Virus record (IMG/VR): IMGVR_UViG_3300019776_001117
Location: 1 to 36,356 of that record
Length of the DNA stretch: 36,356 bases
DNA from: a virus
Reading direction: 5' to 3' (one strand)
Part shown: positions 1,693 to 34,227 of the stretch, in pieces
Numbering within the stretch: the stretch's first letter is position 1
Layout of the letters: every line of letters starts with the position of its first letter
The notes under the pieces: generated by a model
The model's input: the letters and a program-made list of their open reading frames with translations, nothing else
Told to the model about the DNA's origin: nothing
The model's database searches: none
Program-made: the position numbers and the translations under genes

Positions 1693-1758
1693 TTTTAAAA
1701 AGTATAATTTGGCTTTTAAAATTTAATTTCTTTTAAAAATATAATCGCAAAATTAAAA

Positions 1759-1787
1759 TGTACACAAATCTAAATTGAAATGTACAC
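1759..1787. repeat. Candidate prophage right end: two TGTACAC boxes spaced 22 bp
   Basis: AAATGTACAC occurs twice as a direct repeat, with TG at 1759 and at 1781, exactly 22 bases apart. Mu-family ends start with 5'-TG and carry transposase-binding repeats of about 22 bp. Seen from the prophage interior, the minus strand would end with CA at 1759. Both repeats lie between the last phage gene and the host-like lipoprotein. Without the left end, the matching inverted TGTACAC and the target duplication cannot be verified. Confidence 0.5.
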
Positions 1788-1821: not shown

Positions 1822-1865
1822 ATTTAAACCCGATTTAAACCCCATTTAACCCACATTTAAACAAA
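1822..1865. repeat. Four tandem 11-bp repeats (ATTTAAAC box)
   Basis: Four consecutive 11-mers each begin ATTTAA (starts at 1822, 1833, 1844, 1855); three read ATTTAAAC and one ATTTAACC. The array overlaps the last codons of the thymidylate-synthase-like gene and sits 35-100 bases inside the proposed phage end. An 11-bp period puts each box on nearly the same face of the helix, as expected for a cooperatively bound protein such as transposase or an architectural factor. The function is inferred. Confidence 0.55.
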
Positions 1866-2484
1866 ACTTCACGTCTTTGCCCTCCAACAGCTCCTTAGTG
1901 CCGGCTATATTATTCTCATACACATGAACATTGCCCAGGAACAACGTAATAGACTTCAACGGCAGGGCAATCTGTTTACTTATGAGGTACAAGTGATAAA
2001 TATCAGCGGGTAAGCCTAGATTGGCGTCAGAACTACGCTGATACGCCGTTACAACGAGCTTGCCTTTCTCTATTTGGAACTGGATAAGACTAAGGCATGG
2101 CTGTTGGTTGCTCTCGCTGTTGTTAGAACCAAGAAATAACACATAATTCTTAGACGGACGTTGCTCTCTATTGATTTTCTGAATGAGCTTTGGCAACTGC
2201 TCAAAATACGTAGGATAGCTATTGACAAGGATAGGACCGCAATAATCCCACCACGAAACACCAACGTTTCTATAAGCCTCCGTAGAGCGTTCGCCTGCCA
2301 TAAATAACCCTAATTCGTCTTTAAGCTTTTTTCGAGCTACAGAATGCCCCTCAAATAGCTCCAACAAGTCAATTGGCTTTAATTCTAGTGTTTGATTCAA
2401 TAAGTAACTGATTGAACCCTTTTTATTTTGTTGAGTTTTACCTTTTTCAAGGATTTTATTTAAAATTTGATGATACTTATTCAT
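1846..2484 (-). CDS. Thymidylate synthase / dCMP hydroxymethylase superfamily protein
   Basis: A 212-residue relative of thymidylate synthase (E. coli enzyme 264 aa). With the ATG at 2484: an N-terminal YHQILNKILEKG helix; a GVSWWD segment (cf. VTIWDEW); catalytic-site QPC (Cys130); then YQRSSD (Arg150, Asp153) and LGLPADI, and HVY (His187, Tyr189). Spacing from Cys to Arg and from Arg to the substrate-selecting residue equals E. coli TS, but that residue is Asp161 where TS has Asn177. Asn-to-Asp here is the known switch from dUMP to dCMP in T4 dCMP hydroxymethylase. The Arg-Arg phosphate clamp from the second subunit is not evident. An upstream start at 2541 is possible but lies inside a strong stem. 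As the last phage gene it occupies the place of Mu mom, so nucleotide modification for DNA protection is inferred. Confidence 0.72.
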   Translation of the reverse strand: MNKYHQILNKILEKGKTQQNKKGSISYLLNQTLELKPIDLLELFEGHSVARKKLKDELGLFMAGERSTEAYRNVGVSWWDYCGPILVNSYPTYFEQLPKLIQKINREQRPSKNYVLFLGSNNSESNQQPCLSLIQFQIEKGKLVVTAYQRSSDANLGLPADIYHLYLISKQIALPLKSITLFLGNVHVYENNIAGTKELLEGKDVKFCLNVG

Positions 2485-2526
2485 TTCGATTTTTGATTGA
2501 TGATTGATTATTTTATATTTGCAACT

Positions 2527-2641
2527 CTCACACCTTACCATACAGAAAAGCCCACAAGCAACTAGAAGACTTATGTCCTCCAGTAGCCTGTGGGCTCTGT
2601 GGTTAAAAAGGTGTGAGAAGCTTTTTTTAATGCTGGAGGAC
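2527..2641. other. Nested inverted repeats, possible pseudoknot, ahead of the TS-like gene
   Basis: Three layers of complementarity are visible. An outer perfect 10-bp stem pairs 2527-2536 with 2608-2617. An inner stem pairs 2549-2556 with 2589-2596 (8 bp), with short helices between (2538-2540 with 2600-2602, 2543-2545 with 2597-2599). A 9-bp perfect match joins the apical loop (2575-2583) to sequence outside the hairpin (2633-2641), which would form a pseudoknot. It fills the gap between the membrane-protein gene and the TS-like gene; the ATG at 2541 lies next to the outer stem. It may be an attenuator, translational switch or processed RNA. Confidence 0.5.
2543..2599 (-). terminator. Hairpin with U-run, minus-strand terminator or attenuator
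   Basis: On the minus strand AGCCCACA pairs with TGTGGGCT and is followed by TTTTCTGT, a plausible intrinsic terminator after the tail-fibre genes. It is the inner part of the larger structure at 2527-2641. Termination here would restrict readthrough into the TS-like gene. Confidence 0.45.
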
Positions 2642-2668
2642 TATTTTTTAATTCCCGCCTCCTGGGAA

Positions 2669-3073
2669 TTAACTCAACAACAAGAAACCCGCTATTTCCT
2701 CATCGTTCATGATAGAGGCAACACAATGGCCCCCTTTACGCCATTTGGAATAATCTACTCCAAACAGCAGGTAATAAAACAGCAAACCAAACCAACTTAG
2801 CGACTTTTCGAGCTTCTTTTTACCAAGGCAACTTGATAATGTTTCTCCAAAAACACCGAAACGATAACCGCCTGTAGAAAATACCAAATTCCAAAAGTCC
2901 GGAAACAAGAAGTTTGCAAAAACATCTACTTTGAAAGCCTTTTTAAACTTCCTTTTAGCTGTGATTTTAAACCATTTTCGACGACGCACATTGATGACTG
3001 TCATTGTAATTTCATCTAAGACATAAACAACAGCAAACAACAATAAGGCTATGATTGACAATACAAATCCCAT
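2669..3073 (-). CDS. Small membrane-associated phage protein, unrecognised
   Basis: 134 residues. An N-terminal transmembrane helix (about residues 3-20, GFVLSIIALLLFAVVYVL) is followed by a very basic segment (RRRKWFKITAKRKFKKAFK) that should stay in the cytoplasm. A second aromatic hydrophobic stretch, SWFGLLFYYLLFGV, lies around residue 92. The start overlaps by one base the stop of the preceding gene, so the two are translationally coupled at the end of the tail-fibre cluster. I recognise no family; a late membrane function or superinfection role is possible but unsupported. Confidence 0.6.
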   Translation of the reverse strand: MGFVLSIIALLLFAVVYVLDEITMTVINVRRRKWFKITAKRKFKKAFKVDVFANFLFPDFWNLVFSTGGYRFGVFGETLSSCLGKKKLEKSLSWFGLLFYYLLFGVDYSKWRKGGHCVASIMNDEEIAGFLLLS

Positions 3074-3561
3074 TACTCCACAAATTCAAATTGAACGCCT
3101 ATTTTTTCACCTTTCATCACCACAGCATCTTTAATGAATAATTGCGCTAAAGGATTTGTCAACGATATATTGCAATCATCAATGCTACCCCCATCAAAAT
3201 ACAACAATGAATCTTCTCGATTAGGATAGCCAATATCTTCAATTACATGAGTAGCTGGCAACTGCATATTATTTGCTGCCAAAACAGCCAACAATGGCAC
3301 GATTTCACCAGTAGCAATTTCTTTGGCGTAAGCAGTTCTATTGGTTGTTGGACTTTCTTCTGAATCGTTGTTATTGCCTTGAAACGGCAAGGTGCAACGG
3401 TCAAGAATTACCTTAACATTATCTTTCACGCAATACATTAAGAACTCAATGTAATACAATGAATTATCAATGATTTCTTTTTTACCATCTTCAATAAATA
3501 CGTTTACAAATGTGCCTTCTGTAAGTATCGGCGAGATATAATTTTGTGATTGTAGTTTCAT
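3073..3561 (-). CDS. Unrecognised virion-region protein downstream of the tail fibre
   Basis: 162 residues, soluble, acidic, no signal peptide or membrane segment. It follows the large fibre gene after 5 bases and is in the same operon, so it may be a fibre accessory, chaperone or distal tail component. The sequence shows alternating beta-type segments (VNVFIEDGKKEIIDN, KVILDRCTLPFQ) and a DDCNISLTNPLAQLFIKDAVVMKGEKIGVQFEF C-terminus region split by a Pro. I do not recognise the family. It lacks the GSRLCF-type motif of the DGR targets, so it is not a DGR target. Confidence 0.55.
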   Translation of the reverse strand: MKLQSQNYISPILTEGTFVNVFIEDGKKEIIDNSLYYIEFLMYCVKDNVKVILDRCTLPFQGNNNDSEESPTTNRTAYAKEIATGEIVPLLAVLAANNMQLPATHVIEDIGYPNREDSLLYFDGGSIDDCNISLTNPLAQLFIKDAVVMKGEKIGVQFEFVE

Positions 3562-3566
3562 TTTTC

Positions 3567-5843
3567 TTAGTATGTTGAATTATTGAAAATTGCTGGTAGA
3601 TTTGTCATTCCCACTTTATAAGTTCCAGAGGCATGGTATATAGAGCCTTCTTTTGTTACAAAATCAGAAGGAATATTAGTAGTTGTATCATTAGAAGATA
3701 CAAATAAAGCACCTGTACCGTTATCGATATATACACTTCCTTTAAACATAACTATACGAGAATAAAAACCTGTCGCATCCGCTGGAGCATTAACCCAATT
3801 AAACATCGGTCTATTATTAGGCATTATAATAGAAATATTTTGAAGTATTAGTTGCATACCATCTGTTGCTACTCTTATATCCATTAAAAAAAATCTTGCT
3901 GCTGATAAAAATGTCCCTGCATCTATAATATTAAGAGTCATATTTGAAAGCTTACAAGTTCTAGACCCCTCATAATTAGATGACCTTGTACCTCTCCCTA
4001 TATTAATAAGGTCATTTATAGTAACATTATAAGTAATATTTACTCTTTGACCAGTTCCGAGTATTTGAACAAAGCTAGTCCCAGAGTAATTATTATAAAA
4101 GACAATATTTGTATAGCTATATCCAGTTAATATCACTATACCAGTAAATCCGCATGTGATACCAGTTCCAGAACTACCTCCTAAAGTTAATACTGGAATT
4201 TTAGAAAAAGTATCATTATTACTAACTGTAATTCCGCTATAGTTATTTATTAAGTTTTTTATTGAAAAACTTCTACAACTAACAGACTGACTAAATAGTC
4301 CTGGTGTATAATTAACAGTTGCATCTCTTAGCTCTAATGTATTCACATCGAAATCAAATGAAACAGGTAAGTTTGAACCTAAAATTGAAATACCTTTATC
4401 TATTCTAAAGTAATTTACCTTCCAAGGAAGAACTGTAGTTCCAGATTGAATACTTCTTGTCCATCCTCTATCAAATCCATATCCAGTAGTGTTGTTAAAA
4501 CATAAAACATTTACATTGATTTCTAGGTAATAAGAACCTCCTGCAAAATCATTAAATGAGTAATTATAATACAAAGTAGTTGGTGTCCAATTAAAATTAA
4601 CTGTACCGTTTACTCGTAGAACAAAAGTTCTAGTTATCTGCAAGCCTTGATTAAAGTTGAACACGCAATTATTGTCAGAAATCAAATTAAAAGACTTCAT
4701 AGTGACTTGAGAATCCAAACTATAAGTTGCTGGTAAACCTGTTGTAATAATAAATAATCCATTACCATTATTGCTAGGCGTATGCGCATTAATAGCATTA
4801 ATACAGGCAATTAAGGTTTTAAAAGGTTTTACAGGATTATAAAATTCAGCAGTAGCGTCATTTCCGTTTGTATCATCAAGATAAACACTATTATATATCG
4901 ATACTTTTGGTACAATATTCCCCTCAACCGCCCACGTATCAGTAGCAACTTTTTTAAGGTAAAACGTATCGCCTTGTATAAAAGTCAAATTTCGTTGTAC
5001 AAATGTAATTCCAGCCCCTCCCACAGTAACAGCACCAGCACCCTCAACAGTACAGGTAATTGTTGTACCTATAGGAATAGCTACACTAGCATTAGTAGGT
5101 ACAGTAGCCGCTACAGCCGTTGCACTCGAAAAACGATTAGTTTTTTTATAATCATCAATAGCAAATGTATAGCTTACACCTGCAATCGAGTTATTGGTGA
5201 GTGCCCAGTCTTGTTTTCCTGAAACATCTGTCATCAGTGTCAAATCACCACTTCCTAAAATAGAATTACCGTTTATTGTTTTTATGTTGGTTCCTGAAAC
5301 CAAGGTCGCTTGTTTACCGTTAACAGCAGTTGTTAAAGTATCAATCAAACCTTTCAACGTTTTACCCATTTCAGCCGTCAAGGCCTTAGTGGTTCCGCCC
5401 GTGGTCAAGTCATTAACCAGTATTGTAGAAAGCGAAGTTTCAACCGTCTTGATCGCATCGACAAGCTCTTGAACGGTGTCAAGATTAACATCGTCAGAAG
5501 TCAACAGCGTGTTTATGGCCGTGATTTGCGTTTGCAATGCGGTAATTTGCGAAGCTGTCAACACATCGACTTCCTGCAAATCTTCCACTAAGCCGTTAAG
5601 TGTTTCGATGGCTGTGGATAATGTTTGGGCGGTTCCGGTGTAACCTCCGTGTGGTAATTTCGAATCCATTTCAGCCTGTCCAGGAATACCAGCCAACAAA
5701 CCATCCAGCCCCTCAATGTCGGCAACGGGAACTTTCTCACTCTTGTGGCGAAAAGAATCCAGCATTGCCCAAAATTGATCTTGCGTAGGCTTTAAATGGG
5801 TTTTAAACCAGTTTTTTATAGTATCTAAAGCAGTTACAGCCAT
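3567..5843 (-). CDS. Tail fibre / receptor-binding protein
   Basis: 758 residues. The N-terminus (DTIKNWFKTHLKPTQDQFW) resembles the baseplate-attachment segment of Bacteroidota phage fibres. Residues about 75-180 form a heptad-rich trimeric coiled coil (LTASQITALQTQITAINTLL and following). Then comes the recurrent fibre motif TNIKTINGNSILGSGDLTL around 185-205. From about 320 to the end the sequence is rich in short beta strands, Asn, Gly and Ser, consistent with a right-handed beta-helix adhesin. It lies between the baseplate/collar gene and two small genes, where Mu carries its fibre genes S and U. It probably determines host range. It carries no variable repeat, so the DGR in this phage does not act on it. 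Confidence 0.75.
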   Translation of the reverse strand: MAVTALDTIKNWFKTHLKPTQDQFWAMLDSFRHKSEKVPVADIEGLDGLLAGIPGQAEMDSKLPHGGYTGTAQTLSTAIETLNGLVEDLQEVDVLTASQITALQTQITAINTLLTSDDVNLDTVQELVDAIKTVETSLSTILVNDLTTGGTTKALTAEMGKTLKGLIDTLTTAVNGKQATLVSGTNIKTINGNSILGSGDLTLMTDVSGKQDWALTNNSIAGVSYTFAIDDYKKTNRFSSATAVAATVPTNASVAIPIGTTITCTVEGAGAVTVGGAGITFVQRNLTFIQGDTFYLKKVATDTWAVEGNIVPKVSIYNSVYLDDTNGNDATAEFYNPVKPFKTLIACINAINAHTPSNNGNGLFIITTGLPATYSLDSQVTMKSFNLISDNNCVFNFNQGLQITRTFVLRVNGTVNFNWTPTTLYYNYSFNDFAGGSYYLEINVNVLCFNNTTGYGFDRGWTRSIQSGTTVLPWKVNYFRIDKGISILGSNLPVSFDFDVNTLELRDATVNYTPGLFSQSVSCRSFSIKNLINNYSGITVSNNDTFSKIPVLTLGGSSGTGITCGFTGIVILTGYSYTNIVFYNNYSGTSFVQILGTGQRVNITYNVTINDLINIGRGTRSSNYEGSRTCKLSNMTLNIIDAGTFLSAARFFLMDIRVATDGMQLILQNISIIMPNNRPMFNWVNAPADATGFYSRIVMFKGSVYIDNGTGALFVSSNDTTTNIPSDFVTKEGSIYHASGTYKVGMTNLPAIFNNSTY

Positions 5844-13804: not shown

Positions 13805-14980
13805 TTACTCTAGTGTTGTGGTAAATCCAATGTTTACCGTTATGAAATCAGAATAGCCTACAGGAAGCAATTGAAGGGCTACGTTAACATTGTTCGTTTG
13901 CGAAACATTTTGATTTTCATCAATGAAAGCTTTTACACCTGAAAGCTTGCCAGCCTCAACCATGTTGGATTTAATTTGGCTTTCAATTCCGTTTTGCCAT
14001 GCTTTAATGATTGCCGGATGAATGGTTCCCGCTTCGGTTACTGGAATTTCGTCCGACAGTTCTTGAACCAATGTGGTGTAAGCTGTTATAACAGCTTCAT
14101 CCATTACCAAACCCCTTGCAAGGCTATTAAAGTCGTCTGTAGGCAAAGTCAAAGTTTTATCACCTGTAAAGTAAAAACCGGATAAATTGGCAAAGCTTCG
14201 CATAAAGATGTAATTCTTAGCGTCTATCGCATTCCAGGCAGTGTCCAAAGTGGAAACCGCTTCACCATTGGTAAAATAAGCGGCAAAAGGTTCAATTGCA
14301 CCGTCTTTCACACGGCTTAACTTTCGTTGCGTTGGAATATTAGCCATACGCCCAAGAGCCAAACCAATTGAAGCTTCTTTCGAACCGTCAGTATTGGCAA
14401 TAAGAATCGAAACTTTATTGTAGTTTGTTGTAGCGTAATCTTTTAAATTAGCTACCGTACCGTCAAATTTATTGCCTGATATAATCACTCTCACTGGAAA
14501 ATACCTGTCGGCAAAGTCCTGAGCCAAAGCCTGGGCTTTTACAACTGCCGTATGCACGTCAGCATCCAAACCTTCGGTAATTGTTTCGCCAGTTCCCGAC
14601 TTTTTTAAAAGTCCTAAAATTCTAATTTTACCTTGGGCATCGCTCAACAACTTTTTAGCGTATGCTTTAGTTATGTCAGCCTGATCGGTTAACGTGATTG
14701 TCGAAGCAACCAGCATGAACCACAATTCAGCTCCTTTTTTTGCTTCCGCATAAAAAGCCGCAATCTGTTTGTAGGCGAAATCGTTGGTACCACCTTCGGT
14801 AATTCCTAAATTAATCGCTTCATCCAATGAAAAGATTTGGTAAGAAGTACCTACAGTTACTTTATTAGCTCCCGCAACGGTTACACCTGTCAATACAAAT
14901 CCGGGTATCTTTTGGATGTCTGCCTGTGACAACTCTAGACCATTGCTAGAGATGTTAAATTGTACATTTGGTAAACTCAT
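13805..14980 (-). CDS. Contractile tail sheath protein (DUF2586-like, Mu gpL-like)
   Basis: 391 residues. The N-terminus has LPNVQFNISSNGLELSQADI. The alpha/beta body (QIFSLDEAINLGITEGG, KGAELWFMLVAST, KIRILGLLKK) and a C-terminal PAIIKAWQNGIESQIKSNM helix, ending VALQLLPVGYSDFITVNIGF, are typical of the DUF2586 sheath family found in Bacteroidota Mu-like phages. Contraction drives the tube through the envelope. Its ATG overlaps the stop of the spanin gene (ATGA), tying tail and lysis genes in one transcript. Confidence 0.8.
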   Translation of the reverse strand: MSLPNVQFNISSNGLELSQADIQKIPGFVLTGVTVAGANKVTVGTSYQIFSLDEAINLGITEGGTNDFAYKQIAAFYAEAKKGAELWFMLVASTITLTDQADITKAYAKKLLSDAQGKIRILGLLKKSGTGETITEGLDADVHTAVVKAQALAQDFADRYFPVRVIISGNKFDGTVANLKDYATTNYNKVSILIANTDGSKEASIGLALGRMANIPTQRKLSRVKDGAIEPFAAYFTNGEAVSTLDTAWNAIDAKNYIFMRSFANLSGFYFTGDKTLTLPTDDFNSLARGLVMDEAVITAYTTLVQELSDEIPVTEAGTIHPAIIKAWQNGIESQIKSNMVEAGKLSGVKAFIDENQNVSQTNNVNVALQLLPVGYSDFITVNIGFTTTLE

Positions 14981-18046: not shown

Positions 18047-18099
18047 CAAGGCTTGTATTGTTTTCGTACAAGCTTTGTATCAAATTCATACAAGGCTTG
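18047..18099. promoter_or_regulatory. Three 22-bp-spaced CAAGGCTTG repeats between divergent late operons
   Basis: CAAGGCTTG (18047), CAAGCTTTG (18069) and CAAGGCTTG (18091) lie exactly 22 bases apart in direct orientation. Box 1 and box 2 also form a near-perfect inverted repeat because CAAG and CTTG are complementary. They occupy the only gap between the minus-strand head operon and the plus-strand packaging operon. Two helical turns of spacing fits a cooperative activator or repressor. No late-activator gene is recognised in the window. Confidence 0.6.
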
Positions 18100-18143
18100 A
18101 AACCCTTTTTTTTCAAGGGGTATTATATGTAGAAATTTGCCTC

Positions 18144-18431
18144 ATGACTGATATACTTTTAGACGACACAGGCGATTTAACCATTGAAAATGGCGACTTC
18201 ATTTTAGGATTTTCTGACAACCAGCATCAGGAACACATTTTAATTGCCACAAAGGGAGAATTCAAGGAGTTTCCCGAGTTGGGTGTTGGGCTTAACAGGA
18301 TGTTGAGCGACGACGATTATATGTCGTTTTTGATTGACGCCAAGAAAAACCTTGAGTACGACGGTATGAAAATTAATAACATAAAGTTTGAGGAAAACGG
18401 AAACCTAAACATCGATGGCCAATACCAATAA
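18144..18431 (+). CDS. Baseplate wedge protein, gp25/gpW/Mu gp46-like
   Basis: 95 residues from the ATG at 18144 (MTDILLDDTGDLTIENGDFI); the frame extends back to 18075 through repeat DNA. The sequence has the DxLLDDxGDLxxENGDFxxG opening, QHQEHILIATKGEFKEFPELGVGLN core and a DGMKINNIKF end, the hallmark of the Mu gp46/W/gp25 family. It is separated from the other baseplate genes (7118-10094) and instead leads the plus-strand packaging operon, an unusual place. It overlaps the terminase small subunit start by 17 bases. Confidence 0.8.
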   Translation: MTDILLDDTGDLTIENGDFILGFSDNQHQEHILIATKGEFKEFPELGVGLNRMLSDDDYMSFLIDAKKNLEYDGMKINNIKFEENGNLNIDGQYQ

Positions 18432-18903
18432 AACCAAAGGCAGAATGACTGCCGCAGAAAGTGACTATAAAAAAAGCCAGGGAAAAGATTTGTTTGTAAA
18501 AGGCTTTTCGATAACCAATATATCCGAAATTATTGGTGTTGGGATCAAAACAGTATCCAATTGGCGTGATCTATATGAGTGGGAGAAAGAAAAAGAGCTA
18601 CACAGCCTTCGACCAAGTGAAATTAAAAAACTGCTTTTACAATATGTGCTAGACCTCCGTGACGGTAAAAAACCAACTCATAAAGCTGATGATTTAGCCA
18701 AAATTTCCGCCGCTTGGGATCGTATGGACGACGACCGTAAAAAAGCCGTTCATACAATGGAAAGCTTTGACGGTTTCAGTCAGTTTATGATAGTTCTGGC
18801 AGGTAATAATACAGGTAAAAAGCGTGACGACATTATAGAATTATTACAGGCTATCCGAGTGTTTTTTGATAAGTATGTAAACGAACTGGTAAGCAATGAC
18901 TAA
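18415..18903 (+). CDS. Terminase small subunit
   Basis: 162 residues. A helix-turn-helix at about 27-55 (GFSITNISEIIGVGIKTVSNWRD) is followed by an oligomerisation helix region. This is the standard small terminase plan: DNA recognition plus ring assembly that recruits the large subunit. The start lies in the last codons of the wedge gene and the end overlaps the large terminase by 8 bases. In Mu-like phages the small subunit helps to cut host-flanked phage DNA at pac sites. Confidence 0.75.
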   Translation: MANTNKTKGRMTAAESDYKKSQGKDLFVKGFSITNISEIIGVGIKTVSNWRDLYEWEKEKELHSLRPSEIKKLLLQYVLDLRDGKKPTHKADDLAKISAAWDRMDDDRKKAVHTMESFDGFSQFMIVLAGNNTGKKRDDIIELLQAIRVFFDKYVNELVSND

Positions 18904-20452
18904 AACAGAATTAAAAGAGGCTCTTGAAAAGTACAACAGGCAATCTAAAATGATTCAGGTGCTTTCTAGTGCATCATTATTTAAAGAGACCAGCACACAA
19001 CAAGAAGAGCGCATCAAACGCCTTTTGAAGCCTGAAAACTATCTCGAGTTTTTTGAGTATTACTATGGTGTAAATTCAGGTTTGGCTTTGGCTGATGCTC
19101 CTTGTGCAAAATTTCATTTAACCAGTTATTTAGAACTGTTTAAAAACCCTTTAATCAAACAGCAACGCCGTTGGTTTCGTGGTGCTGCTAAGTCTATTCA
19201 CACCAATGTGGGAAACCTTACTCACCTTAAGGAAAATAACGAGGTAAATTTTGCCTTAATCATAGGTCGTACACTCGATGCGGGTAAACTTTTACTTTCT
19301 GATGTTCAAATGCATTTGGAAAGCAACGAGCGATATATAAAAGATTTTGGTTTACAAATGCAATACGGTTCTTGGGCAGACGGACAGTTTGAAACCAATG
19401 ACAAAAAAATGTTTAAAGCACTAGGATTAAACCAGCCTTTCAGGGGTTTGCGTAATAATGCCAACCGCCCCGACTTTGCCTCAATGGACGATTTGGAAGA
19501 CCGTAAACAAGCCAAGAACATTGATATTACAAAAGAGAACGTTCAAAAGCTCACAGGCGATTTAGGTAAAGCAGGTCAAAAAGGGCGCTTTCGTCAAGTC
19601 ATGGCAAACAACTATATCGTTAAAAACGGTATCGTTGACGGGTACGCCGAAAAAAACAAAAAATCGCCGAACTTTAAAATTAGCACGGTCAACCTTTGCG
19701 GTCATAATTTTAAACCAAGTTGGCCGGAACGTTACACGGTACAGGAATGTAAAGACATTGTAAATGACACCGATTATCACACCAGTCAAAGGGAAGACTT
19801 TAATAATCCGGTTGAGGAGGGAAAGCGAATTAAAGAAGAGTGGATCCACTTCAAAAAAACTCATGGTAATCAAATTTTTGAAGGTCTAATAGAATTTTGG
19901 GATTTATCATATAAAGATACGGGCGATTTTAAAGCGGGTGGTATTGTGTCAATTGAGAAAGGAAGAGCACATGTTCTCGAAATATTTAATCGTCAAGTTA
20001 GCCTTTCTGATGCAATGAATATGCACTATGAATGGCAACAGAAATATAACGCAAAAGGAATGTCAATCATTTCTTTTTATGATGCCACGGCAGCACAAGA
20101 AACGGTTTACGAACCCGAATGGCTAGTAGCTTGTGAAGAAAATAATGCGGTGAGTATTCCTATTGCAGATCATGCTTCAGGCGATAAACACGACAAGATT
20201 GATGCTACATTAACCAATACATTTAAACGTGGTTTAATCACTTTTGACGAAAAGTTGAAAGACACTCCTGACATGGATAAAGCTCTTGAGCATATTCTTG
20301 CTTTTGAAAAAGGATGTAAAACACCCGATGACATTTTGGATGTTTTAGAACAATGTGTTCGAAAAGGTAGGCTATTATTTGGCTACTCTCAAAAAGAAGA
20401 CAGCAACCAAAAACCCATTATCGGAAAACGCAAAACAGCCAGAAGAGTATGA
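18896..20452 (+). CDS. Terminase large subunit (Mu gp28-like)
   Basis: 518 residues. The ATPase P-loop is the deviant RWFRGAAKS (about residues 92-100). A Walker-B-like segment is ASMDDLED (about 195-202). The RNase-H-fold nuclease domain starts at FWDLSYKDTGDF (Asp336) and includes SFYDATAAQE and a GDKHDKIDATL segment for later metal ligands. It cleaves and packages DNA at the portal. Neighbours on both sides are packaging and connector genes with overlapping stops and starts. Confidence 0.85.
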   Translation: MTKTELKEALEKYNRQSKMIQVLSSASLFKETSTQQEERIKRLLKPENYLEFFEYYYGVNSGLALADAPCAKFHLTSYLELFKNPLIKQQRRWFRGAAKSIHTNVGNLTHLKENNEVNFALIIGRTLDAGKLLLSDVQMHLESNERYIKDFGLQMQYGSWADGQFETNDKKMFKALGLNQPFRGLRNNANRPDFASMDDLEDRKQAKNIDITKENVQKLTGDLGKAGQKGRFRQVMANNYIVKNGIVDGYAEKNKKSPNFKISTVNLCGHNFKPSWPERYTVQECKDIVNDTDYHTSQREDFNNPVEEGKRIKEEWIHFKKTHGNQIFEGLIEFWDLSYKDTGDFKAGGIVSIEKGRAHVLEIFNRQVSLSDAMNMHYEWQQKYNAKGMSIISFYDATAAQETVYEPEWLVACEENNAVSIPIADHASGDKHDKIDATLTNTFKRGLITFDEKLKDTPDMDKALEHILAFEKGCKTPDDILDVLEQCVRKGRLLFGYSQKEDSNQKPIIGKRKTARRV

Positions 20453-20934
20453 CACCACGTAAAGAACTATTCATAAAAGTTAAAGAGGCGCTGGCACAAT
20501 TGCCGGCTTTGGAACTTGTCGATTTACAGCGCAAACAATTCAGTCAGCCAAAGGACAGCTATCCCAGCTATTTTACAGCCGCTTTAATCGAAATTAAAAC
20601 GATAAACTGGCAAACGATGGTAGAGCAACGGCAGGAAGGAAAAGCGACTGTCGATGTGACTTTTTATTGTAAAGATGGCTGGATGGATCAGTATAACGGA
20701 ACTGCCGACCCCGAACACGGCTTAATCGAAATTGATGTCATTGACACCATTGTCGAACAGCTTCAAGGGTTACAGGGAGACTATTTCAAACCTCTTGATT
20801 TATCCAATGAGGAAACCGTTGAGGAAGCTGAGGAAATTATGAGTTACCGGCTTTCATTTTCGACAGTCATTTATCGAAAAATCAATCCAAAATTTAGCAG
20901 TAAAAAATTAACTGTTCAACCAATAACAGCATAA
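20449..20934 (+). CDS. Tail terminator-like protein (Mu gp37 position)
   Basis: 161 residues. The alternating helix and strand pattern (KVKEALAQLPALELVDLQRKQ, then SYPSYFTAALIEIKTINWQT, then QEGKATVDVTFYCKD) matches small tail-terminator proteins that cap the tube and join it to the head. It overlaps the large terminase stop by 4 bases (ATGA). The assignment is by secondary-structure pattern and position next to a gp36-like gene. Confidence 0.55.
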   Translation: MTPRKELFIKVKEALAQLPALELVDLQRKQFSQPKDSYPSYFTAALIEIKTINWQTMVEQRQEGKATVDVTFYCKDGWMDQYNGTADPEHGLIEIDVIDTIVEQLQGLQGDYFKPLDLSNEETVEEAEEIMSYRLSFSTVIYRKINPKFSSKKLTVQPITA

Positions 20935-20936
20935 TC

Positions 20937-21368
20937 ATGTTTTTAGAAAAATCAGAATTAAAGACCGTAGGGGTTGACGAAATAATCAACAGGATTATTA
21001 ATGATGATGATACTATTGTTGAGGAAATTATTGCCGAGAGTATCGACACTATGAGCGGGTATCTTTTTCAATATTATGATACCGAAGCTATTTTTTCAGC
21101 CACAGGAAATGACCGCAATCTTACTGTTGTAAAACACCTGAAAGGGATTGTATTGTTTGAAATTTATACCCGCAGAACCAAACAGCTTAATGAGGTTGCC
21201 AAACTTCGCTATGATGAAGCCATGTTATGGCTTGAAAAGGTTTCAACTGGAAAAATAAAGCCCGATTTACCGCAAAAGCTCACAGACACAGACGGAGACG
21301 GGACACCGGACAGCCCTTCTACATTTATGAAGCTCGGAAGCCGTAAAAATTACCAAAATGGCTGGTAG
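20937..21368 (+). CDS. Head-tail connector, Mu gp36-like (DUF1320)
   Basis: 143 residues. The helical N-terminus (DEIINRIINDDDTIVEEIIAE) and the segment VVKHLKGIVLFEIYTRRT followed by DEAMLWLEKVSTGKIKPDLP match the DUF1320/gp36 family, which sits at the neck. The C-terminal 25 residues are flexible. It overlaps the following morphogenesis gene by 11 bases. Confidence 0.75.
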   Translation: MFLEKSELKTVGVDEIINRIINDDDTIVEEIIAESIDTMSGYLFQYYDTEAIFSATGNDRNLTVVKHLKGIVLFEIYTRRTKQLNEVAKLRYDEAMLWLEKVSTGKIKPDLPQKLTDTDGDGTPDSPSTFMKLGSRKNYQNGW

Positions 21369-21855
21369 TTTAAAAGACTTGGAAAACCTGCTTTTGAAAG
21401 CTTCCAAAGAGATACCGGACAAAGCTTTGCGCATCATTGGCGTGGAGGGAATAAAGTTTATAAATAAAAACTTCAGGGATCAAGGTTTTACCGACACCAC
21501 GACAAAAAAATGGGAAGCCCGAAAAACAGTTGACGGCTTCGGGCGGGACATAACCCGATACAGAACCAATCGTGTAGGACGTGTTGGAAACTTGAACCGT
21601 TACGGAAGCAAAAAGGCAGACCGAGCGATATTGGTAGGATATAACACAGGAGGTGACAAGCTAAAAAACTCCTTTAAATACCATATAAACAAAAACAATA
21701 AGACCGTAGCTTTTAGAACCTACAAGCCTTATTCAGCCCGTCACAATGAAGGATTGGACGGAATGCCAAAACGCCAGTTTATGGGTAAATCAACGTATTT
21801 AAACCGTCAGATTTTTGATAAACTAAAACGAGAATTAGACAAAACTTTAAAGTAA
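21358..21855 (+). CDS. Virion morphogenesis protein G-like (tail completion)
   Basis: 165 residues, basic. N-terminal helices, then FINKNFRDQGFTDTTTKKWEARK (about 34-56) and the Pfam tail-completion (P2 gpS / Mu gpG) pattern, including a C-terminal SARHNEGLDGMPKRQFMGKS motif. These proteins assist tail attachment or act as neck components. The gene lies between the gp36-like connector and the portal. Confidence 0.75.
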   Translation: MAGSLKDLENLLLKASKEIPDKALRIIGVEGIKFINKNFRDQGFTDTTTKKWEARKTVDGFGRDITRYRTNRVGRVGNLNRYGSKKADRAILVGYNTGGDKLKNSFKYHINKNNKTVAFRTYKPYSARHNEGLDGMPKRQFMGKSTYLNRQIFDKLKRELDKTLK

Positions 21856-21856
21856 A

Positions 21857-23119
21857 ATGAGTTCAAAAAACAGAAATATAGCCAGTATAAAAAAGCGTGT
21901 CAATCAGGTGAGCCTTTCAGGAAACGCCATTGGTAAAAAGATAGATTTATCAAAAGTGGACACCAACGATATAACCAAAATAACCAATTTGATGGTGGAT
22001 GTTATCCGTCGTCAACGCCGATTGTGGCGAAAAGAGATCAACGATTGGCAGGCGGCACGATATGCCTATTATCAATCTGACATCCCTCGTTTTTTTCCAA
22101 TGCAGGAAGTCTATGACGACGTTATGCTGGACGGCCATTTGACAGCAGTAACAGAAGATCGTACTTTAAGGACTACCAACGAAGATTATATTTTTTCTAT
22201 CGATGGAATTAAAGACGATAAATTGACAACTTTTATCGAAGATCAGGAATGGTTTGATTATACACTGGACGAAGCTCACAAAACGACTTATAAAGGTGAA
22301 GCTTTTCTTTGGATTAAAGAGTTTGAAAAAGGCAATATCAAAGAAGTTGAAATCATTGACCGTGGCTTGCTCGTTCCAGGACAAAAAATATTGTTGTACG
22401 ACATCAACGGCAATAAAGGACTTGACGTGTCTGAGGTGGACGATGTTTTGTTGTATGCCAAATTTTACAGCAACATTGGAATATTAGAAAAGGCAGCCGT
22501 TTACACGATTCTCAAACGTCACTCTTGGGGGTCATGGGATGAGTTTGAAGAATTGTTTGGTGTTCCTATCCGTATCGCCAAAGTTGCCAGTCAAAGCGAA
22601 ACCGTAAAAAACGAAGTAGCAGGATGGTTGGAAGAAATGGGGAGTGCGCCTTATGGAGTTTTTCCGCTAGGTACCGAAATCGACATTAAAGAAAATAGCA
22701 AATCAGATGCCTTTAACGTTTTCTATCAAAAAATACAAGCCTTAGACAAAGAGCTTTCCAAATTGGTTTTACATCAAACTATGACTACCGAAAACGGAGC
22801 AAGCAAGGCGCAAGGAACCGTACACGAAAACACTCTGGAAGAGGTTATCAAATCGGATAAAAAGAAAATGCTTTCATTCCTGAATAAGCGTTTGGTTCCG
22901 GCTATGCGCAAACTGGGTTACGCTATTCCTGACAATGCCAAAATCACGATTGAAAAAACCAAAGACCCCGAAAAGCAAATTAAGATTGACAGCCAGTTAT
23001 TGTCTAACGGCTACGTGCTAAAACAGCAGTATATTGAATCAATCTACGGTGTGGAAATTGAGCGTATGCCCTCATCTCAAACACCACCATCGAAACCCGA
23101 CAATGCAAAAAAGCGTTAA
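21857..23119 (+). CDS. Portal protein (Mu gp29-like, DUF935)
   Basis: 420 residues. The plan fits DUF935 portals: helical wing (RRQRRLWRKEINDWQAARYAYY), then SWGSWDEFEELFGVPIRIAKV (about 219-239, the most diagnostic stretch). A stem/crown region follows with LSKLVLHQTMTTENGASKAQG and HENTLEEVIKSDKK. It forms the dodecameric vertex to which the terminase docks. The end overlaps the MuF gene region by 17 bases. Confidence 0.85.
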   Translation: MSSKNRNIASIKKRVNQVSLSGNAIGKKIDLSKVDTNDITKITNLMVDVIRRQRRLWRKEINDWQAARYAYYQSDIPRFFPMQEVYDDVMLDGHLTAVTEDRTLRTTNEDYIFSIDGIKDDKLTTFIEDQEWFDYTLDEAHKTTYKGEAFLWIKEFEKGNIKEVEIIDRGLLVPGQKILLYDINGNKGLDVSEVDDVLLYAKFYSNIGILEKAAVYTILKRHSWGSWDEFEELFGVPIRIAKVASQSETVKNEVAGWLEEMGSAPYGVFPLGTEIDIKENSKSDAFNVFYQKIQALDKELSKLVLHQTMTTENGASKAQGTVHENTLEEVIKSDKKKMLSFLNKRLVPAMRKLGYAIPDNAKITIEKTKDPEKQIKIDSQLLSNGYVLKQQYIESIYGVEIERMPSSQTPPSKPDNAKKR

Positions 23120-24414
23120 GCCTGCTTAAACTATACTATCGTTCCAATTGTTGTGATGACGATCATTCAACCATCCAATTAAACAAACAGGAAGACGACA
23201 TTTTAAGCAGGCTTATCGAAAGTTATTTTAGACAGCTATTTGATGACAGAAACGTATCTAAGGAAAACAAACAGGCTCTTTGGGATTACTACAACACACA
23301 TTTAAGTAAGGCGTTTGATTTGGGCTATAATGCCAATTCAGAATATTATGATGAAGATTTGGCTTCCAATTTAAAAAACAATATTGCCAAATTTTCGGCA
23401 TTCAAAGAAACAAGCTTCAGGTCACAACTTGAGGCGGCACTTACCGAAGACGACAAAGTGATACCGTGGTCGGAATTTAAAAAGAGAGCCACCGAATTAC
23501 ACGTTGAATACAATCAGCGTTGGTTAAAAACCGAATATCATCACACTATAGCAACAGCTAACAGCGTGGAAAATTGGAAACGTTTTGAAGCCGATGCGGA
23601 TTTGTACCCAAACCTGAAATACAACGCCGTAAACGATGCCAGGACTCGCGAAAAACACCGGGCATTAGATGGGTTAATTTTACCTATTAATCACCCATTT
23701 TGGAAAACCCACAACGTGCCATTAGACTGGGGTTGTCGTTGTATTTTAGAACAGACAGACGAGCAACCAAGCAAAGTAATTCCTGAATTGGACATCAAAG
23801 GAGCTTTTAAAAACAATGCAGCTTTGAGCGGTGAAATCTTTGGAGAAATGCCGTATGAGAATGGTATGGGCAAAGAACTTGTAAAGGAATCAAAATCTAA
23901 TGCGATTAGGTTCTCTAACAACAAAGTATTGCAATCGGAAAGAAAAGACCAATTTAAAAAGGTATTTGAAAGCAAAAAAGGAGCTGTTTTAGAACACCAA
24001 CTAATTACTAAAAGTGATGATTATAAGGACATTTTAGGAGTGGCCAAAGCCTATGCTAAAAAAGGTAAAATTGCCGAAATGCTACCCGAAATTTCAGAAC
24101 GGGAAAAAACAATTAGAAGTGTTGTTTTTCCAAATTTGCAATCCAAAACATCAAATCCCGATTTGAAAATAGGAAATCAATATTTTGATGTCAAAAGACC
24201 GTCAGTCATTAAAAACATTTTAGGGAACGCCAACAAAGCATCAAAACAGGGAGCAATTGCAATTATTAGTGACAGCAGATTAGACAAACCTTTGACGGAT
24301 GCTATTATTCAGGAGCGTGCAAAAGACATTTTTAAGAATAAAAATTACAATTACGATTCAGTTGTATTTTATAAGGATGGAAAGCTAATTGTATTAAATC
24401 GAACAGGCGTTTAG
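23103..24414 (+). CDS. MuF-type minor head protein with nuclease-toxin-like C-terminus; frame break at start
   Basis: About 436 residues. The MuF core lies around NDARTREKHRALDGLI, HPFWKTHNVPLDWGCRC. The last about 160 residues resemble CdiA-type toxins, with AKAYAKKGKIAEMLPEI, then a PD-(D/E)xK-like NPDLKIGNQYFDVK, then SKQGAIAIISD. MuF proteins are ejected with DNA and are known carriers of effector domains. The body frame has no ATG before 23320 (TTG). Its homologous N-terminus (ALSLLKLYYRSNCC) begins just after ATG 23103, but in another frame, separated by a run of six A. Removing one A joins them. This could be slippage, mutation or sequencing error. Confidence 0.75.
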
Positions 24415-26057: not shown

Positions 26058-26354
26058 TTAAGTAAATTCTAAATGTTCTGATTCTTTTATTATTGTTGTT
26101 TTGAATGGGAATTTGTCTTCAGGTACTTGTTTTATCATTTGCATTAAAATTGTTGAACCAGTAAATAAAATGTGTTTAGTTCCGTTTTTTTCGAGTTGAA
26201 GTACTAAACACTTTGTGCCTTGTTTAACCTTTGAATCTTCAATTTTATAGGCTAGTATTGTTATTTCGGCGTTTAATATTCTATCTACTTTTATTTTGTC
26301 ACCTGTAAAAGTGGATAGTTCTGCTTTGATTTTGAAATCTTTAAAGTTGTTCAT
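26058..26354 (-). CDS. Unrecognised 98-aa protein coupled to the DGR reverse transcriptase
   Basis: 98 residues with a five-strand-like beta pattern (DFKIKAELSTFTGDKIKV, EITILAYKIED, GTKCLVLQLEKNGTKHIL) and KFPFKTTIIKE near the end, suggestive of an OB-like nucleic-acid-binding fold. Its start overlaps the RT stop by 14 bases, so translation is coupled. It is not Avd (a basic four-helix protein) and contains no HRDC motif that I can see. It might be a DGR accessory factor, or simply an early gene captured next to it. Confidence 0.5.
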   Translation of the reverse strand: MNNFKDFKIKAELSTFTGDKIKVDRILNAEITILAYKIEDSKVKQGTKCLVLQLEKNGTKHILFTGSTILMQMIKQVPEDKFPFKTTIIKESEHLEFT

Positions 26355-27303
26355 TGGGTAATAGTTTCTTTAATAAATGTTTGGAGTTACAATGTTTTGC
26401 CCATCCATTGTAAGCGGCTATTGTAGCCTTGTTTTTTGTTTTGGATATTGCCTTTGCAAATCGTTTTTTGATGGATTTTCGAAGCAGTGTATGCGTGTGG
26501 TAGAACTTATAACCTACAAAATCAATCCCGCGAGCTTCAACAGGGAATACTTGGTAATTATCTTTTACCTGTAGTTTTAAATTATCGTTTAAATACTGTT
26601 TAATGGCTGATAAAATCTCGTGTAAGTGGGGTTTGTTGTTCGAAAGAATTACGATGTCATCGGCATATCTGAAGTAATATTTTATTTCCTTTTGTTCCTT
26701 GATCCAATGGTCAAAATAAGTGAGGTAGAAGTTGGCCAAGTATTGGCTTAAATAATTCCCAATTGGTAAACCGCTTGCACTATCTATGATTTCATCGAGT
26801 AACCAAAGCAGGTCATTGTCCTTGAACTTTTTTCGAAGTAACGCTTTTAGTATATCGTGATTTACATTAGGGTAGAACTTGACAATATCCAACTTCAAAC
26901 AGTATTTTGTGTTCTCCTGGTCCTGCAATGCCGTTTTGATATTATTGGCAGCGGCATGTATGCCTTTTCCTTTAATACACGCATAACTGTCATTTGCAAA
27001 AACCTTTACAAATATGGGTTCTAGGATATTCATTACGGCGTGATGGGTGATACGGTCAGGAAAGTAAGGAAGGCGAAAAACCAGCCTTTCTTTTGGTTCA
27101 AATACGGTGAATGTAGTGTACTCCGATGTTTTGTAGTGTTTGTTCAAAAGCATTTCGTGGAGTTTGAAAATATTGCTTTCCGGTTCTTTGTCGAAAATTT
27201 TGACACCGTATTGATTGGATTTGCCTTTTCTAGCTTTGGATTCGGCAATCTTTAAATTATCAATTGAAATGATTTGTTGATAGATATTATTTAATCTTTT
27301 CAT
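26341..27303 (-). CDS. DGR reverse transcriptase (bRT type)
   Basis: 320 residues, a compact group-II-like reverse transcriptase. Motifs: LDIVKFYPNV with Asp139; the DGR-type turn GLPIGNYLSQYLANFYL around 178-194 (the xGxxxSQ motif of bRTs); the catalytic FRYADDIVIL with Asp215 and Asp216; and GIDFVGYKFY around 259-268. No maturase or endonuclease domain is present, as in DGR RTs. It reads adenine-rich TR RNA and copies it with adenine mutation into VR. The TR lies 116 bases upstream and two target genes lie beyond that. The 98-aa gene follows by overlap. Confidence 0.92.
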   Translation of the reverse strand: MKRLNNIYQQIISIDNLKIAESKARKGKSNQYGVKIFDKEPESNIFKLHEMLLNKHYKTSEYTTFTVFEPKERLVFRLPYFPDRITHHAVMNILEPIFVKVFANDSYACIKGKGIHAAANNIKTALQDQENTKYCLKLDIVKFYPNVNHDILKALLRKKFKDNDLLWLLDEIIDSASGLPIGNYLSQYLANFYLTYFDHWIKEQKEIKYYFRYADDIVILSNNKPHLHEILSAIKQYLNDNLKLQVKDNYQVFPVEARGIDFVGYKFYHTHTLLRKSIKKRFAKAISKTKNKATIAAYNGWAKHCNSKHLLKKLLPNEQL

Positions 27304-27329
27304 GGCTTTGCTTAGATTGGCTCGCTTTC

Positions 27330-27349
27330 GTCCCGATAGCTATCGGGAC
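27330..27349. repeat. 20-bp perfect palindrome between TR and RT
   Basis: GTCCCGATAGCTATCGGGAC is identical to its reverse complement. It would form a strong hairpin in TR-RT RNA or a cruciform in DNA. The same sequence type is a common interspersed palindrome in Bacteroidota, but hairpins near DGR cassettes can also affect homing. Confidence 0.6.
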
Positions 27350-27418
27350 TACTAACGAACCTATTAAGAATGTGATTTTTTGCCGTGTTGGCAAGGTCTG
27401 TGGTGTTTAATATTTTAA

Positions 27419-27498
27419 GCTCAGGTGCGAGCTGACATTCGAATTCGTGTTCCAGTTATCGTAGTCGTTGTACGAAAAACTGCCACCTGAAGGAGAAC
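27419..27498 (-). repeat. DGR template repeat (TR)
   Basis: 80 bases on the minus strand containing 20 adenines. Read in the target frame they form codons such as TAC, AAC, GAC, GAT, AAC and AAT that give high diversity when A is mutated. It matches both VRs at all but one of its 60 non-adenine positions. Only the single G near its 3' end differs (T in both VRs), consistent with the IMH/IMH* difference. TR itself has no long ORF. Confidence 0.93.
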
Positions 27499-27528
27499 TA
27501 CAGCAACGACACCACACAACCTGTATTA

Positions 27529-27906
27529 TTATGCTTTTACAAAATAGGCTCTATACAAGTCTTCAAATTGCTTTCCTGCATATTTTGCCATTTCTCTAGT
27601 TTCGAAGCAAAGGCGCGAGCCGACAGTCGAAGACGCGATCCAGCGAACGCAGACGAAGAACGAAAAACCGCCACCCGAAGGAGAACCCATCTTAAACCAA
27701 GGATAGTATTTGTACTGATCCCAGTCCGTCCAGTCTGGGACCCAATCACCGTTTATGGCTTTGGCGATAATTACTAATTTGGCGTGAGCGATCATTGCTT
27801 CTTTATCCGATTCAGGAAACAATGAAAAATCTGGAATAATAGTTGCTGAATCCAAGTTTAATACTTGACAAGCGTCTTCAAATGTTTTAATGTTGGTGTA
27901 ATTCAT
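27529..27906 (-). CDS. DGR target protein 1, CLec-type variable protein
   Basis: 125 residues. The N-terminus is helical (FEDACQVLNLDSATIIPDF). The C-terminal half has the WTDWDQYKYYPWFKMGSPSGG lead-in and a CLec-like core with GSRLCFETREMAKYAGKQF. The region from SPSGG to RLC is the variable repeat. Variable residues, Phe-Phe-Val-Cys-Val-Arg and Ile-Ala-Ser-Ser-Thr, replace the Tyr-Asn-Asp-Tyr-Asp-Asn and Asn-Thr-Asn-Ser-Asn of TR. The gene is 30 bases before TR. It would encode a binding protein diversified by the RT. Targets of this kind in Bacteroidota phages are small and not fused to the fibre. Confidence 0.88.
   Translation of the reverse strand: MNYTNIKTFEDACQVLNLDSATIIPDFSLFPESDKEAMIAHAKLVIIAKAINGDWVPDWTDWDQYKYYPWFKMGSPSGGGFSFFVCVRWIASSTVGSRLCFETREMAKYAGKQFEDLYRAYFVKA
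27607..27686 (-). repeat. Variable repeat VR1
   Basis: Aligned to TR without gaps over 80 bases. It differs at 19 positions; 18 are template adenines, only the one near the 3' end is not. The gene lead-in is also nearly identical to that of VR2. Confidence 0.93.
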
Positions 27907-27915
27907 TTTATGTAA

Positions 27916-28374
27916 TTAAGCGGTTAAAAAATCTTTGTAAATACTCTCAAATAATTTTCCTGCATATTCGGCTAAATCAGAAGATTTGTAGCAAAGGTGC
28001 GAGCCGACACACGAACCCGCGCGCCAGTAAACGTAGTCGCTGAACGAAAAACCGCCACCCGAAGGAGAACCCATCTTAAACCAAGGATAGTATTTGTCCC
28101 ATTTACCGTTAGTCCAGTCAGGTGTCCAACCTTCATTAAATGCCTGAACGATTAATTTTAGCTGTTTATAAGCCAATTCGTCAGTAGAAAGACCTTTGCA
28201 TTGTTCTGCGAATTCTTTACCGTCAATGTTTAGGACGATAAGGACATCGACAAAGTTTGTGATACGTTCTTTAATGTCTTTTGGTATTTCTACCAAATTA
28301 ATTGCTCCCGACGTTTGGTCTATTGATCCAAACTTGTATCCTTTTGGAGGATTGATTTTCATTGTTTCACTCAT
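27916..28374 (-). CDS. DGR target protein 2, CLec-type variable protein
   Basis: 152 residues. The N-terminus MSETMKINPPKGYKFGS is a common lead in Bacteroidota phage proteins of this class, followed by a helical DVLIVLNIDGKEFAEQCKG region. The C-terminal half has WTPDWTNGKWDKYYPWFK and the core GSHLCYKSSDLAEYAGKLF. Variable residues are Phe-Ser-Asp-Tyr-Val-Tyr and Arg-Ala-Gly-Ser-Cys. It is paralogous to target 1 and lies 9 bases upstream of it, so one TR serves two genes. Not part of the tail operon, so it is unclear whether the product is a virion protein. Confidence 0.88.
   Translation of the reverse strand: MSETMKINPPKGYKFGSIDQTSGAINLVEIPKDIKERITNFVDVLIVLNIDGKEFAEQCKGLSTDELAYKQLKLIVQAFNEGWTPDWTNGKWDKYYPWFKMGSPSGGGFSFSDYVYWRAGSCVGSHLCYKSSDLAEYAGKLFESIYKDFLTA
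27991..28070 (-). repeat. Variable repeat VR2
   Basis: Ungapped 80-base alignment to TR has 16 differences, 15 at template adenines. It shares the single non-adenine difference with VR1. Confidence 0.93.
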
Positions 28375-33288: not shown

Positions 33289-34227
33289 TTATGCACTCAA
33301 TAATTTTGGCATTCCTAATATGGTTCTAATAAAATCCTCTGTAAGTGGCTGACCGGTTCTATCGGCTTCTTTCATTGCTGGTACTAAGACATCGTGTAAT
33401 TCGCCGTAGTTATCACAATTTTGCTTTAAGAAGCTGATTAGTGATTTATCTTCTATTTGATCTAAGAACATTGAAAAACTTCTGTCTATGCTTGGTAATT
33501 CTCTTATTCCAAATTTGATTCTACGGTAATACTGTGGAATCCCTGAACGGTTCTTTTTGCGAAGCTTGTCAAGATTATCGGTTAACTGACTAGTTCCAAT
33601 AAGAGTGATTCCGCAAATTTTTATAAGAGCATCGTAAAGCTCTTTCATAGAACAGAGAGCGGGTTGTTTCATGTACTCGCACTCATCAAATATCAGGTGT
33701 GGTTTTTGACCTTCTAGTTTTAACTGTTTTAGTCGCCTAGCTATTTCACCAATTTTTTTACTTTTGGTTTTTGGTGTTGCAATTTTTAATGCATCGATAA
33801 TCTTGTCAAGTAAATCGCCGATAGTATCGAGAGAACCAACAACAATTTTAAAAGTGTCAACCGGATTGGCTTTTAAAAACATATCAGAAATATAGGTTTT
33901 GCCTGAACCGGTTTCGCCTATGATTATATTTGACGATCCGTTTTCTTTGGCATCTTCAAGAGTTGAAAGCATTCGGTACAACTGTGGTGTTTCTTTTAAC
34001 TCCCAATATTCTTTTTTTAGAGACAATCCAATAAATTCTGAAACCATCAGGTACCACTTATCTTTAATTTTTGATTTGCCTACAGTGGTTTCACCATTTC
34101 TTATGCTTGAAATATAACTTTCGTTGACCCCTGAACGCTTCACAATTTCGTTAGCAGAAATATTATGAGTTTTTATAAATTCGTTAAGCGCTTCGGTAAT
34201 CTGCTGTTTTTGAATCGTTGTAATCAT
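33289..34227 (-). CDS. MuB-like transposition ATPase
   Basis: 312 residues. An N-terminal helix-turn-helix (about 10-45, NEFIKTHNISANEIVKRSGV) joins an AAA+ core: Walker A GETGSGKT (104-111), Walker B LIFDECEYM (178-186), then GTSQL and arginine-rich RKKNRSG. The C-terminus is helical. As in Mu, it would coat target DNA, deliver it to the transposase and stimulate strand transfer. It overlaps the transposase stop by 4 bases (ATGA). Confidence 0.85.
   Translation of the reverse strand: MITTIQKQQITEALNEFIKTHNISANEIVKRSGVNESYISSIRNGETTVGKSKIKDKWYLMVSEFIGLSLKKEYWELKETPQLYRMLSTLEDAKENGSSNIIIGETGSGKTYISDMFLKANPVDTFKIVVGSLDTIGDLLDKIIDALKIATPKTKSKKIGEIARRLKQLKLEGQKPHLIFDECEYMKQPALCSMKELYDALIKICGITLIGTSQLTDNLDKLRKKNRSGIPQYYRRIKFGIRELPSIDRSFSMFLDQIEDKSLISFLKQNCDNYGELHDVLVPAMKEADRTGQPLTEDFIRTILGMPKLLSA

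Follow-up and report, generated by a model that had tools for sequence, protein, structure and literature searches.

The final gene at the right end of the transposable phage Mu belongs to com-mom, whose product Mom acts on adenine in DNA and is presumed to protect that DNA from restriction. Enzymes of the thymidylate synthase (TS) superfamily use, to our knowledge, free nucleotides in every characterised case. In a survey of modified-cytosine phages, positions 177 and 147 (E. coli TS numbering throughout, unless stated) best separate modification-type enzymes from ordinary TS, Asp177 marking those TS homologues that lie on contigs of phages with modified DNA and shifting specificity to dCMP (PMC8670742); Asp at this position in an otherwise TS-like enzyme leads to dCMP methylation (Liu and Santi 1992, as cited in PMC8670742). 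In the T4 dCMP hydroxymethylase gp42, Asp145, which precedes the catalytic Cys by three residues, is essential for hydroxymethylation and has been proposed as a signature together with Ser94 and Tyr96; the D145N mutant yields no product, and the enzyme binds folate even though it has no C-terminal lid (PMC6400193). The CMP hydroxymethylase MilA functions with Lys replacing Arg126 (PMC5175136).

Here we describe a TS-like phage gene that is catalogued as an ordinary thymidine-making enzyme and that we read as a misannotated cytosine-type offshoot. Homologues are carried by the Bacteroides hankyphages in GenBank, where they are annotated as thymidylate synthase; that of hankyphage p00 (DAC76694.1) is a direct homologue, 70% identical, which occupies the right end with a D12 methyltransferase gene after it. 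Our literature search found no description of the function of this family or of any hankyphage DNA modification.

The TS-like gene is the last gene of a Mu-like phage

The window, i.e., the whole 36,356-base virus record analysed here, holds a Mu-like, contractile-tailed phage of Bacteroidota that also encodes terminase, portal and MuF-like genes. The features relevant to its organisation are:

34224-36356, minus strand: MuA-like transposase, reaching the window edge; its homologues lie opposite the TS-like end in related contigs
33289-34227, minus strand: MuB-like DNA transposition protein (PHROG 296, 5.8e-32)
13805-14980, minus strand: tail sheath of the contractile tail (PHROG 907, 6.5e-41)
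3567-5843, minus strand: tail-fibre-like gene, so assigned from its position, in the late region leading to the TS-like gene
2669-3073, minus strand: small gene upstream of the TS-like gene, no family match
1846-2484, minus strand: TS-superfamily gene, the final gene of the phage (PF00303, E=3.9e-20; TS fold, Z about 19)
1740-1786, minus strand: right end of the phage, two direct TGTACATTTYAATTT copies followed by GCGATTATA, host DNA beyond

Genes share one direction from the transposase to the TS-like gene, except for a head cluster at about 18075-24414. The terminal sequence at 1740-1786, whose repeats are putative transposase binding sites, is also where the related contigs L018 and L091 end, and a third contig (L162) contains it too. 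Between this right end and the TS-like stop codon (1846-1848) the DNA is free of genes, and a host-like lipoprotein gene (319-1692) lies outside the phage. The Mu mom-like location proposed in a first-pass annotation of this DNA is thus confirmed, and the TS-like gene is likewise the final right-end gene in L018, L091 and L162. This position is not universal in the family, the gene being internal in many Bacteroidales relatives, where it still lies beside a methyltransferase.

Two further elements of this genome deserve mention. A diversity-generating retroelement occupies 26341-28374 (minus strand), with a reverse transcriptase (PHROG 1423, 7.7e-125) and a template-like repeat at 27409-27498, copies of which (73-79%; 27597-27686 and 27981-28070) lie inside two tandem paralogous target genes and differ from it mainly at template T on the plus strand (A on the coding strand). 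The MuF-like head protein (23320-24414, plus strand) has a C-terminus resembling the CdiA C-terminal domain PF18451 (9.7e-07), of the MuF-toxin type.

A TS fold with a cytosine-type residue

The gene (complement of 1846-2484, stop codon included) encodes a protein of 212 residues (P0001) whose match to PF00303 scores 72.6 bits against a Pfam gathering cut-off of 24.3, and which also matches PHROG 160 (6.6e-28). Its AlphaFold model has a mean pLDDT of 78, with two loops under 50, and superposes about 200 residues on TS entries with Z about 19 and an rmsd of 2.5; TS entries fill the top of the fold list, so the missing T4 gp42 and MilA structures there carry no information. Both family score and fold place the protein in the TS superfamily. 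It stays well below all ThyA equivalog cut-offs of NCBIfam, TIGR03284 giving 53.4 bits against 108.35 and the other models scoring far below theirs.

The residues that bear on its chemistry are encoded as follows:

2146-2154, minus strand: Ser111-Lys112-Asn113, replacing the Arg126/Arg127 phosphate clamp; invariant
2104-2106, minus strand: Gln127, three residues before the Cys, where T4 dCMP hydroxymethylase has its essential Asp145 and TS has Leu; invariant
2095-2097, minus strand: Cys130, the catalytic nucleophile (E. coli Cys146); invariant
2026-2037, minus strand: Arg150-Ser151-Ser152-Asp153 (E. coli Arg166, Ser167, Cys168, Asp169)
2002-2004, minus strand: Asp161, at the position of E. coli TS Asn177 and T4 gp42 Asp179; invariant in 147/147
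1918-1926, minus strand: His187-x-Tyr189 (E. coli His207, Tyr209)

Within the segment YQRSSDANLGLPADI (residues 148-162), Asp161 pairs with E. coli TS Asn177 without gaps by both MAFFT and hhalign. The protein keeps the equivalents of Glu58, Trp80, Cys146, Arg166, Ser167, Asp169, His207 and Tyr209, and is changed at Arg21 (to Lys), Asn177 (to Asp), His147 (to Leu) and Leu143 (to Gln), so that both survey marker positions are of non-ThyA type. Arg126-Arg127 have given way to part of a Ser-Lys-Asn stretch, in which the alignments put Lys112 at either Arg126 or Arg127, one place apart, and the alignment to E. coli TS gives no clear counterpart of Tyr94. A near-invariant Ser89 and invariant Tyr90 and Tyr93, in the region to be compared with the Ser-x-Tyr pair of gp42 (Ser94, Tyr96), are located within or next to a loop whose pLDDT is below 50 and where the alignment is ambiguous. 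About 50 C-terminal residues are missing, the folate lid is absent, and the chain stops some 25 residues past the HxY motif.

A discrete and strongly conserved family in Bacteroidota prophages

Homologues 70-91% identical to the TS-like protein were found on 80 IMG/VR contigs and at 80 loci in bacterial genomes, the latter almost all labelled Bacteroidota. In the phage collection identity falls from 70% directly to 27%; these proteins therefore form a discrete family. Judged by neighbouring gene families, the same kind of prophage accounts for 69 or more of the 79 genomic loci. A single Flavobacterium MAG chromosome (CP051546.1) holds three prophages with the gene (L083, L085 and L088). Among contigs sampled by transposase, 17 of 33 have the gene, a lower bound that is not used as evidence, several of the contigs without it stopping short of the slot; PF09299 was rejected as a transposase marker for being too insensitive in these contigs.

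Cys130, Asp161, Glu57, Arg150, Ser151, Asp153, His187 and Tyr189 are invariant in all 147 distinct homologues, as are Gln127, Lys22, Trp78, Trp79, Tyr90, Tyr93 and Ser111-Lys112-Asn113. Retrieval by conserved peptides biases this sample toward conserved members; the genome scan, however, was run with the peptides WWDYCG and LVNSYPTY alone and thus did not select for the catalytic positions. The first-pass annotation had placed an Asp at the Asn177 position and noted the missing Arg-Arg clamp. Both observations hold, the former beyond what chance would give, and the catalytic Cys, whose loss in close homologues had been named as evidence against its reading, is kept in 147/147.

The gene is under strong purifying selection (median dN/dS 0.047), and its products share a median identity of 76% across loci at which tail proteins share about 34%. 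Given this selection and the invariant residues, a pseudogene or drift is rejected for the family as a whole. Individual broken copies do occur (a frame break at residue 84-85 in L321/L322, G055; an early stop in L111), and the gene can therefore be lost.

A TS fold that is conserved but catalytically dead, binding a host protein or nucleic acid, e.g., as a restriction inhibitor or mRNA regulator, would agree with the replacement of several general TS residues and with the basic character of the proteins (median pI 8.9, against 4.9-6.8 in 19 ThyA, gp42-type and SPO1 gp29 proteins). However, the residues of base chemistry are all invariant, including the nucleophile and Asp161, and such retention would be unexpected in a dead protein; we consider this explanation unlikely.

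The family stands apart from ordinary ThyA and from gp42

In a tree of 29 proteins the family falls outside the gp42 group, with 100/98 on the separating branch, and adjoins ThyA on a long stem, to which long-branch warnings apply. Profile comparison agrees, with hhalign E-values of 1.7e-19 against ThyA and 1.7e-8 against gp42 relatives. Since both tree and profile scores favour ThyA, Asp177 was probably gained independently of gp42, i.e., by apparent convergence.

This proximity, along with the GenBank annotation of the hankyphage genes, is what would favour a thymidylate synthase that has diverged yet still functions, increasing dTTP for the replicating phage. With ThyA the family shares the fold, the equivalents of Cys146, Glu58, Asp169, Arg166, His207 and Tyr209, and the LGLP segment; ThyA differs in having Asn177, His147, Leu143, the Arg pair and the C-terminal lid, whereas the TS-like protein is short (212 residues), basic and lidless. 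Added to these losses and to a TIGR03284 score of half the cut-off (53 bits against 108) is the shift toward dCMP associated with Asp177 (PMC8670742). A full ThyA (E<1e-120) was also present in each of the six hosts checked, so the TS-like protein would be unneeded for dTMP. A dTTP-raising role is thus very improbable, and ordinary ThyA is rejected on the model cut-offs, the lost residues and the host enzyme.

With T4 gp42 the family has in common the base-selecting Asp (position 177/179, in 147/147), Lys at the Arg21 position, the missing C-terminal tail and the setting of phage DNA modification. However, gp42 has Asp145, Thr147 and Arg123/124, all missing from the TS-like family, which shows an invariant Gln127 rather than an acidic residue three positions before the Cys and forms a separate clade. 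Membership of the gp42 family is rejected on Gln127, the tree and the profile scores. MilA shares an Asp for cytosine (Asp186) and has Lys133 at TS Arg126, but differs in Ala176 (ribose), where the TS-like family retains Ser151 (TS Ser167), in an extra helical C-terminal domain and in serving secondary metabolism; its pairing of a Lys at Arg126 with an Ala at Ser167 is not found in the TS-like family. Mu com-mom shares the final position at the right end of a transposable phage and the presumed protection of DNA from restriction, and shows no sequence or fold kinship with the TS-like protein. The initial interpretation is supported as to the cytosine-type residue, clamp loss, position and role, but the kinship with T4 dCMP hydroxymethylase that it implies is not: the signature Asp is an invariant Gln, Thr147 is missing and the family groups with ThyA.

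The TS-like gene shares its slot with DNA methyltransferases

A D12-class DNA-adenine methyltransferase (PF02086; PADLOC type II methyltransferase, E 6e-54) adjoins the TS-like gene in 96 of 157 loci, being downstream of it in 54 and upstream in 42. Each of two D12 subtypes is found on both sides, and the two genes mostly overlap or lie within 30 bp of each other. The pair faces the early genes from inside the genome in many Bacteroidales relatives and sits at the right end in hankyphage; the pairing therefore outlasts genome rearrangement. In the window itself the TS-like gene stands alone, without a methyltransferase neighbour. In Bacteroidales phages, the gene immediately upstream (L066:5689-5931 and 36 other loci) encodes an 80-residue protein that has no family match and looks helix-turn-helix-like by eye; it is a possible regulator.

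Used as a query, the D12 protein retrieved 80 loci, of which 36 have an adjoining TS-like gene and 31 have none despite room on both sides. In L401, L404, L405, L409 and L410 the upstream neighbours are kept and followed directly by the D12 gene, an arrangement that looks like a clean gain or loss of the TS-like gene. At five D12 loci the partner, on either side, is instead a DNA cytosine-5 methyltransferase (PF00145, E down to 4e-45). Contig L420, with a transposase at one end and no D12 gene, has the C5-methyltransferase as last gene at the other, in the slot equivalent to that of the TS-like gene in the window. No TS gene was found in any of the six C5-methyltransferase contigs, and this C5-methyltransferase is absent from every TS-like locus (Fisher p=0.019 for the two genes in D12 loci, relatedness ignored). 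As relatedness is uncorrected, replacement of one gene by the other is suggestive only; the sample is six loci, a wider C5-methyltransferase scan having given mostly unrelated phages. These C5-methyltransferases form a clade about 75-80% identical (L348, L355, L357 and L373, about 2412-3465; L340, 404-1432; L420, 6001-7047), found either at the right end or next to D12 in transposable Bacteroidota phages. In a relative with a related transposase (G051) and no TS-like gene, the final gene (L324:7071-8090) encodes an Mrr-type restriction endonuclease (PF04471, 1.2e-11), whose phage or host origin is ambiguous.

The D12 adjacency and the C5-methyltransferase replacement together indicate that the slot serves DNA modification, and they lend support to the base-modification or counter-restriction role suggested at first reading. 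These neighbours might instead be coincidental, the right end gathering accessory genes to which the role of the TS-like gene is unrelated: TS-like and D12 genes are each found without the other, and the C5-methyltransferase replacements are few (six loci). Against this, the tight coupling (overlap or at most 30 bp) survives rearrangement of genome and gene order, and the identified occupants of the slot are all modification-type enzymes, which makes coincidence improbable.

A proposed role in cytosine modification

The cytosine-type residue, the kept catalytic set, the redundancy for dTMP and the slot shared with methyltransferases make cytosine C5 modification a likely function. With moderate confidence, we propose that the TS-like gene encodes an active folate-dependent pyrimidine-C5 enzyme that takes cytosine as substrate and gives C5-modified phage DNA as a defence against restriction. 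Cys130 would attack C6, as in the mechanism shared by TS enzymes, Asp161 would contact N3 and the 4-amino group of cytosine, and Glu57 would activate folate, so that cytosine C5 receives a one-carbon unit from methylene-tetrahydrofolate and 5-hydroxymethyl- or 5-methylcytosine is formed; in a family that lacks Asp145, hydroxymethylation is less certain. The modified base would then block host restriction enzymes, a protection equivalent to that of Mu Mom, from the same genome position and by other chemistry. Against this proposal stand changes at residues on which both ThyA and gp42 rely (the lost Arg126/127 pair, the unclear Tyr94, with Tyr90 and Tyr93 invariant but in a poorly modelled loop, and Leu in place of His/Thr147) and the Gln found instead of Asp145, whose mutation to Asn leaves the T4 enzyme without product (PMC6400193).

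The evidence is divided as to whether the substrate would be free dCMP or cytosine in DNA. Within the proposed function, action on the nucleotide pool is a possible form: like T4 gp42 or the dCMP-methylating N229D TS mutant, the enzyme would convert dCMP to 5-hydroxymethyl- or 5-methyl-dCMP, to be phosphorylated and partly incorporated. This would agree with the free-nucleotide substrates of the characterised superfamily members, with the retained Arg150, Ser151 and basic Lys21/22, and with the tolerance of MilA for Lys in place of Arg126 (PMC5175136). On the other side, the Arg pair is gone, and the window proteins scanned include no dNMP kinase, dCTPase or glucosyltransferase, enzymes that a T4-like pool route would call for. 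The gene is also the last of the late half and would presumably be expressed late, whereas in Mu replication precedes late expression, and Mu-type replication within host DNA would leave little selectivity to a change in the pool.

Several of the same features underlie a second form, which we regard as rather doubtful, namely a folate-dependent DNA cytosine C5-(hydroxy)methylase acting within DNA and not on free dCMP. It is suggested by the lost phosphate clamp, the basic protein, the placement after late (tail) genes, the lack of a nucleotide kinase among the window proteins scanned, and the fact that both the partner and the substitute of the gene act on DNA. Methylene-tetrahydrofolate would here serve as S-adenosylmethionine does for C5-methyltransferases.

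Implications

The TS-like family is a widespread, misannotated variant within the known TS superfamily, and its gene occurs, under the name thymidylate synthase, in hundreds of Bacteroidota prophages, among them the hankyphages abundant in the gut. If the proposed function is correct, the DNA of these prophages would be cytosine-modified by an unstudied enzyme class. Such modification could have consequences for how these phages are restricted, targeted by CRISPR, sequenced and engineered, and current annotation may miss it. Within the TS superfamily, the cytosine-selecting Asp would then have arisen a second time and independently, and folate and S-adenosylmethionine chemistry would appear interchangeable in one genomic slot.
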